Origin: Acidimicrobiaceae bacterium
GTDB taxonomy: Bacteria > Actinomycetota > Acidimicrobiia > Acidimicrobiales > RAAP-2
Direction: 5' to 3'
Length of the DNA: 64,000 nt
Assembly (NCBI GenBank): GCA_947455165.1
Contig: CANGMP010000001.1
Span: forward strand, 1-64,000
This document shows positions 43,127 to 54,021 of this stretch, piece after piece. Position numbers and translations under genes: made by a program. Within the stretch, counting starts at the first letter, position 1; every line of letters begins with the position of its first letter. The notes below the pieces were generated by a model. That model searched no databases and had not been told where the DNA came from. It saw only the letters and a list, made by a program, of their open reading frames with translations.

Positions 43127-44248
43127 GTGGAGGGAACTAACTTCAGAGCGATGAATGCTCGAGCCGCTCGCACACAAGAAGCGCGAGCCACTCGACGATG
43201 GCCGCTCCGAATAGCCTTTGCCTTCACGCTCGGAGGCCTCGTAACCTCCGGTGTGAGTTTGGCGGGAGCTGGACACTTTTCTCTGGCGACGACCACCACC
43301 TCTGCCGACCACCACGTCGTGACAACTACGAGCTCCACCACCACGCCGGGCGAGCCGACCACGACAGCGGGCGGCACGCCATCGACCACGAAGCCACCCA
43401 CGACATCGACCGTCCCGAGGCCGATCACCAACCCGGCGTACTTCACTCCGCCGGCTCGAGGGTGCAATATGCAAACCGCCTCGTCGGTCGCGACGACGAC
43501 TACATCGACATCGACAACCGAACCAATGCCTTCGAGCACCATTCCCCCAGTGCTCCGCCCGCTGGTCGCCCAGGCTTCGAACCTGGGCCACTGCATCGTG
43601 CTCCAGGTTGGTGACTCGGTGGGTAATAACCTCGGGTACGGCCTCTCGGCGCAAGTTCAGGGCACGCCGGGACTTTCATTAGCCCTGCGAGGAAAGGCAT
43701 CCACGGGCCTCTCAAACTCCTGGTACTACAACTGGCCCAAGGAGTTAACGGCGTATCTACAACAGTTTCATCCCCACCTGGTCATCATCATGCTCGGGGC
43801 CAACGATGAGCAGAGCATGGTAGTTAACGGTCACGCCGAACAGTTCGGATCCGCGGCATGGAAGCGGGCCTACCTCGATCTCGTTATCAAGATGGACCAT
43901 CTCGCCACGAGCGCTGGGGCCCAAGTTCTCTGGGTGGGAATGCCGATCATGGGCCCATCGGGATACAGCGACGGCATGAAGATCCTGAACAACCTCTACG
44001 TCGAAGGGGCTCGCTCAGTTCCGGGGGTCACCTACGTGTCGACGTGGAGTCTCTTTGCGAATGGCGCCGGGGTCTACCGGCCCAATGGCTACGTCAATGG
44101 AAACTATGTCGGGCTTCGCCATCCGGACGGTATCCACTTCAGCAGCCCCGGACAAGCGGTGCTCGGGACGTTTGTCGCCCGTCAACTGGGATCTATCTAC
44201 CACGTACCGATCTTTCCCCACGCGCCGGCGATGATCACCGGCTGGTAG
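43127..44248 (+). CDS. SGNH hydrolase-type protein with N-terminal TM and Thr-rich linker
   Basis: TTTTSADHHVVTTTSSTTTPGEPTTTAGG linker; VLQVGDSVGNNLG, VIIMLGANDEQ, HPDGIHFSSPG. Confidence 0.87.
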   Translation: MEGTNFRAMNARAARTQEARATRRWPLRIAFAFTLGGLVTSGVSLAGAGHFSLATTTTSADHHVVTTTSSTTTPGEPTTTAGGTPSTTKPPTTSTVPRPITNPAYFTPPARGCNMQTASSVATTTTSTSTTEPMPSSTIPPVLRPLVAQASNLGHCIVLQVGDSVGNNLGYGLSAQVQGTPGLSLALRGKASTGLSNSWYYNWPKELTAYLQQFHPHLVIIMLGANDEQSMVVNGHAEQFGSAAWKRAYLDLVIKMDHLATSAGAQVLWVGMPIMGPSGYSDGMKILNNLYVEGARSVPGVTYVSTWSLFANGAGVYRPNGYVNGNYVGLRHPDGIHFSSPGQAVLGTFVARQLGSIYHVPIFPHAPAMITGW

Positions 44249-45436
44249 CTACTTCGAAACGAAGTAGCCCACGAGCAGGGTCGCATTCCACGACAACGCA
44301 ATACAGACAGCCGCCAGGAGAGCCACTGAGAGGCCGTCTCGGTCGAGCCGCTTGGAACGACGGACGGGGTTCTCTAACAGGTGATAGGAGAGCACGGCAC
44401 AGAGGAAGGCTCCGGCAATCTCGATGATGCGCCACCACCACCCAACTGGGGGTGCCACCATCTGCAGCGGTATCTGAATCCACGCGAAGTGAAAGAGATA
44501 GAACGAATACGAGACGTCGCCGACGTATCGCACCGGCGCAAACTCCAGCAGACGCGCCGGTCCGAACTTCGACCCATGACCGCCCGACCAGAGCATCACA
44601 GCCGTGGCCCCACACGGCCACCAGGCCAGCAGTCCCGGAAAGTTTGTGACGTGCTGAAGACGCCAGACGGCGAGGCCGAGGGCCACCATGCCAACAAGGG
44701 TAAGGAGCGATGCCAGCCAACGCGCTCGGGCCAAGACCAACGACGGCATGAGAGCGACGAGGGCGCCGAGCGCTAGCTCAAAGAATCGGGTCAGCGGCGA
44801 GTAGTAGGCCGACACGGTGTGCGTGCTGAGCCCGCTGTGCCAACTCCACCACGCCGAGGTGGCGATGGCAACAACGACCACGGCCCCCAGGAGCCACGTC
44901 CGGCCTCGTCGTGGAGCCAGCCAGGTGAGTGAAAAAACTAGAAATGGAAAGAGGACGTAGAACTGCTCCTCGACTGCCAACGACCAAAAATGGGTCACGA
45001 GCGAAGGGGCGATGCCGGGAATGAAGTAGTCACTGGACGTCTTGATCAGACGAAAATTGGCCCCGAAGAGCGATGACCAACGAACGTCACCGAGCAACGT
45101 GTCGGGAAAGTTGGCTCCGAGGAGCCACCAAGCGACCAGGACCGTGGCAACCATGGTCAACGTGGCGGCGGGCAGAATTCGTCGAACGCGTCGGGCGTAG
45201 AACACCCCGAGGTTGCGCCATACCTGGCGAGGTGGCTGGCGATGCAGAAGGCGCGTAATGACAAATCCACTAATCACAAAGAAGACGTCAACACCGATAA
45301 ATCCGCCACCCATTCCAGGGACCGATGCGTGTGCGAGCACGACCAGTACGACCGCGACGGCTCGGAGCCCTTGAATGTCAGAACGAAACGCTGGAGTAGC
45401 TAGCGGTTCGGATTCCGAAGATGCGAGGGAAGTCAC
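44249..45436 (-). CDS. Acyltransferase-3 family membrane protein, no fused SGNH domain
   Basis: AFRSDIQGLRAVAVVLVVLAHASVPGMGGGFIGVDVFFVISGFVIT, SLAVEEQFYVLFP. Confidence 0.95.
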   Translation of the reverse strand: MTSLASSESEPLATPAFRSDIQGLRAVAVVLVVLAHASVPGMGGGFIGVDVFFVISGFVITRLLHRQPPRQVWRNLGVFYARRVRRILPAATLTMVATVLVAWWLLGANFPDTLLGDVRWSSLFGANFRLIKTSSDYFIPGIAPSLVTHFWSLAVEEQFYVLFPFLVFSLTWLAPRRGRTWLLGAVVVVAIATSAWWSWHSGLSTHTVSAYYSPLTRFFELALGALVALMPSLVLARARWLASLLTLVGMVALGLAVWRLQHVTNFPGLLAWWPCGATAVMLWSGGHGSKFGPARLLEFAPVRYVGDVSYSFYLFHFAWIQIPLQMVAPPVGWWWRIIEIAGAFLCAVLSYHLLENPVRRSKRLDRDGLSVALLAAVCIALSWNATLLVGYFVSK

Positions 45437-49306: not shown

Positions 49307-49723
49307 ATGAGCGTGACCGAACCGGTCCTCTCAGCCTCAGAACTTCAAGAGATTCTCGTTGCCGCCTTCGGTGACGGCGTACCGGTAGTTGACGCGGTCA
49401 CCGACCATGGCGCCACGGTTCGCTATGTCGTCTCGGAGCGTAATATTCGCCCCGGTGGAACCCTCAGCGGTCCAACCATGATGATGCTGGCCGACACGGC
49501 CGCGTGGGTGGCGATCATGTCGCGGGTCGGGGCCGAACTCTTGGCCGTAACGACGAGCTTTCACATGAACTTTCTACGCAAGCCGGCGTTCGCCGATCTC
49601 ATTGCCGAAGCCACGCTCGACAAAGTTGGTCGCAAGCTTGCAATCGTTTCAGTACGCCTCCACTCAGCGGGCACCAACGAACTCGTGGCCAACGCTTCAG
49701 TGACATACGCCCGCCCCTCGTAA
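49307..49723 (+). CDS. PaaI-family hotdog thioesterase
   Basis: RPGGTLSGPTMMMLADTAAWVAIMS, VTTSFHMNFLRKPAFADL; ATG 49307. Confidence 0.88.
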   Translation: MSVTEPVLSASELQEILVAAFGDGVPVVDAVTDHGATVRYVVSERNIRPGGTLSGPTMMMLADTAAWVAIMSRVGAELLAVTTSFHMNFLRKPAFADLIAEATLDKVGRKLAIVSVRLHSAGTNELVANASVTYARPS

Positions 49724-49746
49724 AAATTTAAAGACTGTACTTTCGG

Positions 49747-49752
49747 TATAGT
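49747..49752 (+). promoter_or_regulatory. Candidate -10 element for a leaderless pLGIC transcript
   Basis: TATAGT, 6 nt before ATG 49759, no SD visible. Confidence 0.5.
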
Positions 49753-49758
49753 TACACC

Positions 49759-50832
49759 ATGAACAAGCCATCGTGGATGAAGCTCTCAGTACTCGCCAAG
49801 GTTGTCCCCGGCATCTTCGCTTTCAATATCGCCGTGGTGGTTCCCATCACCATCGCCGCTGGTAGCGACACCGTGGTCACCCGGGGAATCACCAAGACTC
49901 CACCGAAGCCACTCGCCACCACGGAGATCGTTCACCTCGGCGTCGAGCCAATGCAGATTGCCAATGTCGACCTTGGCCACGGCACTTTTGAAATGAGCTT
50001 TTACGTCTGGTGGCGCTGGAAGGGACCGATCGACCCGGTCACCTCGACATATTTCACCAATGCGACAAACGCCTCAACGAATCGAGTCATTGACTACTCG
50101 TTCCTTGACTCTCACAACAACCAGAAGCCGATTCTGTTGAAGGACGGCTACTGGTACCAGCAGGCCTACCTGTCGCTCGGCTTCTCCGACGCCTTCCCCC
50201 TCAATCGCTACCCGCTGGACGTCCAAGACCTGCAGGTTCGAGTTGAGAACACCACCTACGACTACAGCCAGCTGAACTACATCGTCGACCATCATGTGAG
50301 CAAGGACAAGGACCTCGTCGTGCCCGGTTGGACGACGAAGGATATTCAGTTCAAGGAGTACCTCCACCACTACGGCACCGACTTTGGATACACCGACCGT
50401 GGCGAATCGTTCCAGGACTACTCGCTCTTGACGTTCAACGTCCACATCGAGCGACCAATGTCGCATTTCTTGGGCAAGTTGATGTTGCCGCTGATGGTCG
50501 TCTTGCTGGCGGCCGTGACCTCACTCTTCTTGAAGGCCGGCAACTTCGATACTCGCCTGGCGCTTACTGGAACTGGCCTCTTGACCTTGATCTTCCTCCA
50601 GCAGGGTTACTCGGCCGAACTGCCTAGCCCAGTGCCGGTCGTCTTAATGGACAAGATTTATGCGCTGGCCTACGCCGCAGTGCTCGTCACCTTCTTCCGC
50701 GTCATCTGGACAACTGACCGCGTGCATCGCAAGCGTGATGAGGAAGAGCTCTTTGTAAAGAGCGACCGACGACTGGCCTGGATTATCTTCGCGGGCTTTG
50801 TCGGCGGCACCACGCTCTTCGTATTGTTCTAA
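49759..50832 (+). CDS. Pentameric ligand-gated ion channel (Cys-loop superfamily) homolog
   Basis: Signal peptide; beta-rich ECD with FPLNRYPLDVQDLQVRVENTTYD; TM block ERPMSHFLGKLMLPLMVVLLAAVTSLFL / FDTRLALTGTGLLTLIFLQQGYSAELPSPVPVVLMDKIYALAYAAVLVTFF / WIIFAGFVGGTTLFVLF in M1-M4 order. Confidence 0.85.
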   Translation: MNKPSWMKLSVLAKVVPGIFAFNIAVVVPITIAAGSDTVVTRGITKTPPKPLATTEIVHLGVEPMQIANVDLGHGTFEMSFYVWWRWKGPIDPVTSTYFTNATNASTNRVIDYSFLDSHNNQKPILLKDGYWYQQAYLSLGFSDAFPLNRYPLDVQDLQVRVENTTYDYSQLNYIVDHHVSKDKDLVVPGWTTKDIQFKEYLHHYGTDFGYTDRGESFQDYSLLTFNVHIERPMSHFLGKLMLPLMVVLLAAVTSLFLKAGNFDTRLALTGTGLLTLIFLQQGYSAELPSPVPVVLMDKIYALAYAAVLVTFFRVIWTTDRVHRKRDEEELFVKSDRRLAWIIFAGFVGGTTLFVLF

Positions 50833-52685
50833 GAAGCGGTCCGTACGATCCAGAACTTCACAGCTCCGTGGTCTCGCACGCGCGGTGGACCAAAAGCATC
50901 AGTGACGTATTGGGCCGCAACGTCGTACTCGGAACCATGTTTCGTAGCGATGATGATTGAGACTCGATAACGCCGCACGAATTCGCGGAAGGCCTTGACG
51001 GTTTCGGGACCACGTGGAGGCATGAGCTCGTCAAGCCCCGGTACGCCTTCCATAATGCCGGCGTTCGTAGCACCCCAGAATGGCCTCAGAAGGGCAGTTG
51101 ACACTGAGGTCGGCTCCAGCAGTGGAACGCCTTGATTGTGACCTTTCTGGTCGCCCACGATGGCCTCTCCCCCGATGAGCGAGAATCGCATCGACATTTC
51201 GGACTGAATCAACATCGCGTTGTTGAAGAGTGGGTTGGGGTACGGGTAAAAGAGTGCACGGTCACCGGGCTGCACAACCGCTCGATACTCCGGCGATCCA
51301 AACCATGAGCTTTGGTTGGTGGCGACCGTCGAGAAGCGAGCGGCGGGAACCAAGCACCACAAGATCAATGCGGCACCAAGGACCGAGGCGACTACGTGTC
51401 GGGGACGAAGACTTGATGGCGATTCACGCCAAGCCTTTTGAATGGTCGAGAGAAAAAGACCAGTGCCGAGAGCAACAACGACCCAGACCAAAAAGACATA
51501 CCGAGTCGGCAGAATTTCAGAGAGCACCGGAATTGAATGGACCCACGCCAAGGGCGAAGGTACGGAGGTGTCCCGACTATTGACCCAGATGGAGCCGCCG
51601 AGGCTCAACACGGTGAATATCGCGAACAAAATTGCGAGGACTCGGGCGGCCGCCTGCTGGCGATATCGCCATAACCCATACAAAAGCAAGGCGAGCAGGG
51701 GAATACCAACGTAAGCACCCCGCTCAAGGCTGGAGCCCACCAGCGGGTCTAGCAGGAGTCGGGGGCCGAAGCCCAGGGCGTGAGACCACGCATTGGGGAA
51801 GACGAACTCCGCGAGGTCAGTTCGAATGCGTTCGGTCCACGGGTGGGGATTGCCTCGGACGGCCCAAGGCCCAAAGAGGCTCACCGCAACCGGACCGGCC
51901 ATAAGGGTGGCAAAGAGCGCTGTGAAGGGCACGAGCGCCGCTCGGAGAGCTACCCGGGCCGACCTGCGCTGTTCGGCGGTAACGAAAGCGGCAGCGACAA
52001 CCGCTGCCAGAGCGATTGCTAGCAAATCAAGCACCACGCGCTCGGCCGAAATGAGGAATTCGGCACTCAGCAACACAGCGATCCAGCGGGCGAGGCGGCG
52101 AGGCGGACCCTCCTGACGCACGAGGCGCCAGGACAGCCAGAACAGCAGCGGCGGGAGTGGCGCAAACGTCAAGAACAGGTGAGCGTGTCCTTGGGCAATT
52201 GAGAAGCTCGAAAAGCCGTACAGCAGACCAACAACAAAACTCGCAAACCGCGTGAGTCCTACGCGAGTCGACACAAAGTAGGCCGAGGATGCACTCAGCG
52301 CTAAGGCCATAGGCATCAGGAAATTGAACACCGTCGTTGGACCCATGAGCCATGTGAACGGCGTCATCAAAATTCCGAGTAACGGCATGGAGGTGTTCGA
52401 GAGGAGATTTACGCCGTGGGGTACGGCAAGCGCCGAACTCCAAAGCGGATTCAAACCGTGGGCGATCGCGTACGCGGGCCACGCCAGGAACCACACCTCC
52501 TGTACTCCGTCACCCGACGGTGCCATAGGTACGTTTGATGCGTAAATCGTGATCTGTGAATTCTGAAGAAATCCAAGTTTGCTGTAGAGCAAATAGGCGT
52601 ACGCCGTGTAAATAATCACCACGAGCGATGAAGCTCGAGACGGCTTGCGGTGAAACTGTGAACTACGGTGCGAAAGCTTCCCCAC
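50829..52685 (-). CDS. Polytopic membrane protein, GT-C glycosyltransferase-like
   Basis: Multiple TM segments, early acidic motif in SGDGVQEVWFLAWP, C-terminal soluble domain. Confidence 0.7.
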   Translation of the reverse strand: MGKLSHRSSQFHRKPSRASSLVVIIYTAYAYLLYSKLGFLQNSQITIYASNVPMAPSGDGVQEVWFLAWPAYAIAHGLNPLWSSALAVPHGVNLLSNTSMPLLGILMTPFTWLMGPTTVFNFLMPMALALSASSAYFVSTRVGLTRFASFVVGLLYGFSSFSIAQGHAHLFLTFAPLPPLLFWLSWRLVRQEGPPRRLARWIAVLLSAEFLISAERVVLDLLAIALAAVVAAAFVTAEQRRSARVALRAALVPFTALFATLMAGPVAVSLFGPWAVRGNPHPWTERIRTDLAEFVFPNAWSHALGFGPRLLLDPLVGSSLERGAYVGIPLLALLLYGLWRYRQQAAARVLAILFAIFTVLSLGGSIWVNSRDTSVPSPLAWVHSIPVLSEILPTRYVFLVWVVVALGTGLFLSTIQKAWRESPSSLRPRHVVASVLGAALILWCLVPAARFSTVATNQSSWFGSPEYRAVVQPGDRALFYPYPNPLFNNAMLIQSEMSMRFSLIGGEAIVGDQKGHNQGVPLLEPTSVSTALLRPFWGATNAGIMEGVPGLDELMPPRGPETVKAFREFVRRYRVSIIIATKHGSEYDVAAQYVTDAFGPPRVRDHGAVKFWIVRTAS

Positions 52686-52701
52686 GGAGTCAGTATTCCA
52701 C

Positions 52702-54021
52702 TTAGTTCATGCGGTTAAAGAGCGTTCCTGTCAATTCGGAAATTGGGATACGCACCTGCTCCATCGTGTCACGATCGCGCAACGTGACGGCGTTGTCTTC
52801 CAGCGAATCGAAGTCCACGGTTACGCAAAATGGCGTACCGACTTCGTCCTGTCGACGGTAACGACGGCCAATTGACTGGGTTACGTCGTAGTCAACCATG
52901 AAGTGGTTCTGAAGGGTTGCCAAAACGCTGCGGGACAGCGCTTCGAGTTCGGGCTTCTTGGAAAGCGGCAAGACGGCCACCTGGTAGGGGGCGAGCCGCC
53001 AGTGGAGACGCAGCACGGTACGCACTTCATCGCCCACGGCTTCTTCTTCGTAGGCCGAGAGCAGGAACGCCATCATCGCGCGAGTCGCGCCGGCGGCTGG
53101 CTCAATCACGTGTGGCGTGTAGCGCTCGTTGGTGGCTTGATCGAAGTACTCGAGCTTGGTGCCGCTGGCCTCACTGTGTGCCTTGAGGTCAAAGTCAGTG
53201 CGGTTGGCGACACCTTCGAGCTCGCCCCAACCCCAGGGGAAGAGGAACTCGATGTCGGCCGTGCCCGTTGAATAGTGACTCAGTTCATCGGGATCGTGGT
53301 GACGGATGCGAATCTTGGAGGCGTCGATACCGAGGTTCTGATACCAGCTGTAGCGCTGATCAATCCAGTACTCAAACCACGTCGGTGATTCGGCCGGCGG
53401 GACGAAGTACTCCATCTCCATTTGTTCGAATTCACGGGTTCGGAACACGAAGTTCTGGGGCGTGATTTCGTTACGGAACGACTTGCCGACCTGGGCAATA
53501 CCAAATGGCGGCTTCTTGCGGGTCGTGGTCTGGACGTTCAAGAAGTTGGTGAACATTCCCTGTGCCGTTTCCGGACGAAGGTAGGCCACGGCACCGTCGT
53601 CTTCCACTGGACCGGCGTGCGTCTTGAACATGAGATTGAATGCGCGGGCCGGGGTCAGGTCGTGGCTGCCACACTTGGGGCAGATGCCGTCAATTTGGTC
53701 TTCCCGAAGTCGCTCATTGCACTGCTTGCAGTCGACTAGGGGGTCGGTGAAAGTGGCCAAGTGACCCGACGCAGCCCAAACGGCCGGGGGCGAGAGAATC
53801 GCGGCATCCAGGCCAACAACGTCGTCACGAAGTTGCACCATGGAACGCCACCAAGCGTTCTTGACGTTACGAAGAAGGAGGACGCCGAGTGGGCCGTAGT
53901 CGTAGGTGGAACGAAAGCCGCCGTAGATTTCGGCCGACGGAAAGACAAATCCCCGACGCTTGGCTAAATTGATGACCTTTTCTAAGAGTTCGGGATTGGG
54001 CGTTGCTTCGGCACTCGACAT
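52702..54021 (-). CDS. glyS: Glycyl-tRNA synthetase (single-chain class II)
   Basis: KRRGFVFPSAEIYGGFRSTYDYGPLGVLLLRNVKNAWW; LRPETAQGMFTNFLNV. Confidence 0.97.
   Translation of the reverse strand: MSSAEATPNPELLEKVINLAKRRGFVFPSAEIYGGFRSTYDYGPLGVLLLRNVKNAWWRSMVQLRDDVVGLDAAILSPPAVWAASGHLATFTDPLVDCKQCNERLREDQIDGICPKCGSHDLTPARAFNLMFKTHAGPVEDDGAVAYLRPETAQGMFTNFLNVQTTTRKKPPFGIAQVGKSFRNEITPQNFVFRTREFEQMEMEYFVPPAESPTWFEYWIDQRYSWYQNLGIDASKIRIRHHDPDELSHYSTGTADIEFLFPWGWGELEGVANRTDFDLKAHSEASGTKLEYFDQATNERYTPHVIEPAAGATRAMMAFLLSAYEEEAVGDEVRTVLRLHWRLAPYQVAVLPLSKKPELEALSRSVLATLQNHFMVDYDVTQSIGRRYRRQDEVGTPFCVTVDFDSLEDNAVTLRDRDTMEQVRIPISELTGTLFNRMN

Follow-up and report, generated by a model that had tools for sequence, protein, structure and literature searches.

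An uncultured actinobacterium carries a channel gene of the superfamily that includes the acetylcholine and GABA receptors. The gene occupies positions 49759–50832 (+) of the window, the whole stretch of 64,000 nucleotides analysed here; it runs from ATG to TAA and encodes a Cys-less protein of 357 residues which, judging by the open reading frame call, phmmer against the PDB and profile search, is almost certainly a subunit of a pentameric ligand-gated ion channel (pLGIC). The original prediction of a pLGIC homologue had the reading frame exactly, and the stretches it quoted are present in order. Searched alone with phmmer, the protein matches a glycine receptor best (4.3e-8, from the Cys-loop region to M3), a GLIC–GABA-A chimera at 5.3e-8 and ELIC from 4.6e-7, and the best 60 PDB matches listed are only pLGICs and pLGIC chimeras. 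With a family profile built from nine acidimicrobial relatives of the same class (alignment A2), ELIC (2vl0) is matched at 1.7e-27 over profile positions 58–343, comprising the extracellular domain (ECD) and M1–M4, and GLIC (3eam) at 4.6e-21; matches to ELIC, GLIC and chimeras range from 1.5e-28 to 1e-20 over residues ~47–343, and the best 60 PDB matches listed are again pLGICs or their chimeras, without exception. DeCLIC and sTeLIC are absent among the best 60 matches listed for the protein or its profile. For a far relative from another family, a search with that sequence alone aligns most of the protein to ELIC (4e-13).

Screening with the Neur_chan models, proposed originally as a check, gave a divided answer, with the family profile being decisive: Neur_chan_LBD scores 15 bits on the window protein, short of its cut-off of 26, and Neur_chan_memb finds no match in the Pfam search. 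Neur_chan_LBD matches all nine members of the family weakly, Neur_chan_memb matches two of them (best 2.4e-6), and none of the 12 pLGIC genomes exceeds the Neur_chan_LBD cut-off. The NCBIfam LIC model matches the window protein at 5e-13, which is under that model's strict cut-off. A Pfam gathering score sets a limit of detection and does not describe a biological trait, and because the profile comparison is decisive the shortfall on this branch is a sensitivity limit. Among the papers searched, none pairs pLGICs with Actinobacteria in a relevant way, the main text of two pLGIC inventories being silent on Actinobacteria, and the reported distribution in Actinomycetota is probably too sparse, since the Pfam cut-offs leave this branch undetected. 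Within a known superfamily, the acidimicrobial sequences appear to form a new branch that standard annotation overlooks.

Residue register supports the same assignment. Jaiteh et al. (2016) list the most conserved residues of the superfamily, and all seven of the set in their Table 1 (PMC4795631) are found in register in the window protein. The motif that defines the superfamily there, [F/Y]PxD at beta6–beta7 with an invariant Pro (PMC4795631, Table 1), is present as the Pro-loop YPLD (residues 151–154; 50209..50220, +) within FPLNRYPLDVQDLQVRVENTTYD, the stretch that had been placed at the FPFDxQ position; in a GLIC-anchored alignment, Y151-P152-x-D154 corresponds to GLIC 119–122. The same alignment equates W191, R232, P244 and P289 with GLIC W160, R192, P204 and P247, that is, with the beta9 aromatic (W/F/Y), the pre-M1 Arg, the M1 Pro and the M2–M3 Pro, and M2 has a basic 0′ (R266) and a Leu, the alternative being Phe, at 9′ (L275). 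P152, D154, R232, P244 and R266 are invariant in all nine members of A2. Prokaryotic pLGICs are Cys-less Pro-loop receptors. The window protein contains zero cysteines, in agreement with the predicted lack of the Cys-loop pair, and it is thus a Cys-less Pro-loop receptor, the earlier label 'Cys-loop receptor' being wrong.

The domain layout follows the order expected of a pLGIC. A hydropathy peak at residues 15–33 and AxA-type sites (AQA, AGA, ATA) before the mature part in relatives make a predicted N-terminal signal peptide plausible (~residues 1–35; 49759..49863, +), and since a signal peptide is indicated the ECD should face outside. The ligand-binding-type ECD (~residues 56–232; 49924..50454, +) aligns to the ECDs of ELIC and GLIC, is beta-rich in a low-confidence model and ends with the pre-M1 R232 (50452..50454, +), which by alignment is the salt-bridge partner of the Pro-loop Asp. 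The membrane block comprises M1 (residues 235–259 with P244; 50461..50535, +; low-confidence model, alignment and hydropathy), the M2 pore helix with the M2–M3 Pro (D264 at −2′ to P289; 50548..50625, +; alignments and profile match), M3 (residues 294–324; 50638..50730, +) and M4 (residues 332–356; 50752..50826, +), the last two from the low-confidence model and hydropathy. The predicted transmembrane block in pLGIC order is thus reproduced by hydropathy for M1, M3 and M4, which exceed the cut-off together with the N-terminal hydrophobic stretch, but not for M2, which falls below it and may in this respect fit an amphipathic pore helix. The suggested structural check was similarly partial: the AlphaFold2 model, computed from three sequences only, has a pLDDT of 39.9 and a pTM of 0.31, too low to use, though its layout at that pLDDT consists of strands followed by four helices (235–259, 265–285, 294–324 and 332–356).

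Ahead of the start codon, a putative −10 element, TATAGT (49747..49752, +), lies 6 nt before the ATG, and similar boxes (TCGGTATAGT, TCGGTATGAT) are kept before the start in the relatives G016 and G013 despite a differing spacer, which suggests a leaderless transcript from the gene's own promoter. The promoter consensus scan did not report the TATAGT box, and the site that it did propose was rejected, being in a different place and at chance level.

Patchiness and origin from a MAG might point to an artefact of assembly, contamination or a chance ORF, a reading whose probability is negligible and which is refuted by shared synteny: the gene sits inside a 91.8-kb contig, its flanks are collinear in three genomes, relatives of 60–77% identity are intact, and GC3 is 0.78. 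By Nei–Gojobori comparison dN is 0.05–0.34, whereas dS is at least ~1.6 and close to saturation; the gene is under strong purifying selection. In a tree of 16 sequences, where long branches limit deeper inference, the window's family (seven members) forms one clade (98/95) set apart from GLIC, ELIC and the Legionella homologue (97/96), which upholds the view of an under-sampled branch. At least one further pLGIC lineage in the phylum is suggested by two divergent pLGIC-like genes of another actinobacterial family (f87), at loci L021 (1160–2299) and L022 (1177–2391), whose products join the Azospirillum plasmid proteins in the tree (98/98); the L021 sequence reads FPRD at the Pro-loop and is devoid of the M1 Pro and the pre-M1 Arg.

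Distribution is patchy, as had been expected: profile searches found the channel in 7 of 99 genomes of the genus, 9 of 296 sampled genomes of the class and 5 of 397 sampled genomes of the phylum, where two more divergent members belong to another family. In its own genome (a 1.54-Mb draft in 94 contigs, ~90% complete) the gene is the sole match. A candidate second copy in G016 was rejected as the overlap of a contig-end strain variant (91% DNA identity).

The genomic site is variable. Its left border is a 4HBT thioesterase gene (49307..49723, +; Pfam and locus comparison), which is not part of the channel, and its right border is glyS, encoding a class II glycyl-tRNA synthetase (52702..54021, −; locus comparison). 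The thioesterase precedes glyS in most congeners, with a spacing of 21–44 bp at the empty site in eight inspected ones; others have an MFS transporter or a methyltransferase at this site (49723..52702 in the window). In the window, G016 and G013 the channel follows the thioesterase, and the interval up to glyS contains a convergent gene for a 618-aa multi-span membrane protein in the window (50829..52685, −) and nothing in G013, the G016 contig ending within the 618-aa gene. The 618-aa protein has no Pfam match at 1e-5 and occurs with or without the channel; its gene and that of the pLGIC overlap by a few bases at their stop codons. In G739, whose flanks are nearly as window-like as those of G016, it stands at the site with a 34-bp junction and no channel, and a profile search found no channel elsewhere in that bin (65% complete). 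In G040 and G759 the channel lies at a different locus, beside a nuclease-like gene. Patchy carriage and the variable site across congeners argue that the gene has been gained or lost near the tips, yet it is under selection where present.

No conserved operon partner of the channel was seen among the loci inspected. In G309 (L013, 1495–4037) a solute-binding-protein gene immediately precedes that of the pLGIC in the same orientation, an arrangement that recalls the PBP neighbourhoods described by Tasneem et al. 2004 (PMC549065); no such neighbour occurs at the other inspected loci. As for a mobile origin, no match was found among the viral contigs or phages searched, and the plasmid matches comprise only distant relatives from Azospirillum and, when ELIC was the query, a Legionella plasmid. 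Locus L003 (JAGWWX010000018.1) bears the title 'Acidobacteria bacterium', but its gene order follows that of the window across primase, ABC transporter, thioesterase, glyS and other genes; given this collinearity the title is probably wrong and the MAG actinobacterial. Elsewhere in the window, a gene for a Ser/Thr-rich secreted DUF459/GDSL-hydrolase protein (43127..44248, +) adjoins a gene for a multi-span protein similar to acyltransferase-3 proteins (44249..45436, −); the two may together modify surface glycans.

The gene product would form a pLGIC as a homopentamer. Each of the five subunits would be exported via the N-terminal signal peptide, with its beta-sandwich domain outside the plasma membrane and its M2 lining the central pore; a small extracellular ligand, most likely amine- or amino-acid-like, would bind between neighbouring ECDs and open the pore through a coupling core made of Pro-loop D154, pre-M1 R232 and M2–M3 P289, after which cations would run down their own gradient. 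Pentameric assembly is the family rule for pLGICs, and a homomer is suggested by the single gene copy in the genome; while the analysis shows homology, residue register, selection and distribution, the pentamer, the cation permeation and the amine-like ligand are inferred. The protein is very probably a working channel, and a ligand-gated, cation-permeable one, its ligand class left unfixed, is favoured with some confidence.

For the pore, the GLIC-anchored alignment agrees with the M2 that had been recognized by eye (FDTRLALTGTGLLTLIFLQQGYSAELP, with Thr at 6′ and Leu at 9′) and with the predicted D/T at −2′/−1′, giving D264 at −2′, T265 at −1′, R266 at 0′, T272 at 6′ and L275 at 9′. Counting from R266, the positions expected to face the pore are D−2′, A2′, T6′, L9′, F13′ and Q16′. 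By prime count D−2′ matches GLIC E222 (E−2′), the MAFFT gap being placed differently. The −2′ residue is acidic in seven of nine members (the window, G016, G013, G040, G054, G301 and G141), and in G309 and G215 the acidic residue is at −3′ instead. GLIC is a cation-permeable channel with E−2′ (E222), but Jaiteh et al. 2016 regard this site as insufficient to predict selectivity in prokaryotes (PMC4795631), a caution that applies to these positions, and −1′ is Thr here, not Glu. Selectivity, treated as open originally, is accordingly only tilted by the GLIC count, and permeability to cations is a likely consequence of the acidic D−2′ ring. The gates of ELIC are L9′ and F16′ (PMC12637682), and F13′ with Q16′, unlike ELIC and GLIC, might narrow the pore; together with carriage by so few congeners this could indicate a non-conducting pLGIC-fold sensor or a degenerate receptor, which is most improbable given strong purifying selection and the full retention of the coupling residues and of M2 0′ and 9′.

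The ligand site of the proposed cation channel shows a mixture of retained and replaced positions. ELIC has the aromatics Y175 and F188 in loop C. In the alignment, Y82, E163 (50245..50247, +), Y205 and Y221 of the window protein stand at ELIC Y38, E131 (loop B), Y175 and F188, with a shift of one in the numbering allowed past ~residue 164 of 2vl0, which is short of one residue there. Among the ELIC ligand contacts Y38, I79, E131 and F133 (PMC9674596), the first and third are kept (Y82 and E163), F133 is replaced by T165, and the I79 region is poorly aligned; in addition, ELIC F19 is replaced by E63. The loop-A WxP, whose W and P are among the fairly conserved positions according to Tasneem et al. 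2004 (PMC549065), is present in GLIC, ELIC and the Legionella homologue and absent from the window clade and the Azospirillum relatives; a WKP string in G215 lies at the end of beta2, not in loop A. The pocket therefore looks partly ELIC-like, and an amine- or amino-acid-like ligand is the leading guess, a tentative one of somewhat less than even probability, against which stand T165, E63 and the missing WxP. Control by divalent cations as in DeCLIC, or a non-ELIC ligand at a remodelled site without WxP, is possible but rather unlikely: loss of WxP throughout the branch and in the Azospirillum relatives, with the gating core kept, fits remodelling, but the pocket aromatics and E163 are retained, and the extra N-terminal domain of DeCLIC (PMC9897478) has no counterpart in the window protein, where only ~55 residues precede the ECD.

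Gating by protons, as in GLIC, would be attractive if the habitat of the host were acidic, and the fold class and acidic −2′ ring are common to both proteins. However, the GLIC sensors are all replaced in the alignment (E26 by Q66, E35 by G75, D88 by N120, H235 by L277, E243 by S285 and H277 by T319), including E35, the key one (PMC5760087). In GLIC, proton sensing is spread over several loci (PMC5760087), which leaves room for other residues to do the same, yet a proton-gated channel is improbable here.

Concerning the cellular role of the ligand-gated channel, the proposal of Tasneem et al. 2004 (PMC549065) for the bacterial forms is that of a chemotaxis receptor. MCPsignal and flagellin were detected in none of the eight genomes carrying the window clade (seven of them ≥90% complete), with positive controls, and because neither was detected the channel must act other than in chemotaxis in these cells. 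A ligand-triggered cation leak that alters membrane potential or ion balance would be the simplest reading; the last inventory records no prokaryotic pLGIC with a known role in a living cell (PMC4795631). It is conceivable, though doubtful, that the acidimicrobial clade constitutes a functional type of its own among pLGICs: an extracellular site devoid of loop-A WxP would bind a different environmental solute, F13′ and Q16′ rings would lie above the L9′ gate, and the channel would serve a non-motile cell in a role unconnected with chemotaxis, such as ion balance or membrane-potential signalling. Since small-genome bacteria in which neither flagellin nor chemoreceptors were detected keep this branch under strong selection, another function is called for in these cells, and orthologues that keep the gating core without loop-A WxP and with an unusual 13′/16′ pore offer a natural experiment on the requirements of the coupling machinery.

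Among known systems, the animal Cys-loop glycine and GABA-A receptors resemble the window protein from the Cys-loop region to M3 (phmmer, 4e-8), but the latter has no Cys-loop cysteines and a short M3–M4 linker. The Azospirillum plasmid pLGIC-like proteins (e.g. WP_042444967.1; tblastn, 6e-9) likewise have no WxP; they differ in sharing 23–26% identity and in grouping with the actinobacterial G645 and G579, not with the window clade. DeCLIC and sTeLIC are comparable as prokaryotic pLGICs. GLIC shares the profile match (4.6e-21), the acidic −2′ ring by prime count and the coupling residues, whereas its E26, E35, H235 and E243 are not kept, its WxP is absent, its A13′/I16′ is F13′/Q16′ in the window protein, and it lies on a separate tree branch. 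ELIC differs in having E−1′ in place of D−2′/T−1′, A13′/F16′ in place of F13′/Q16′, a loop-A WxP, and F133 and F19 where the window protein has Thr and Glu, and it is alike in the profile match over ECD and M1–M4 (1.7e-27), the loop-B Glu, the loop-C aromatics and the hydrophobic gate position L9′.
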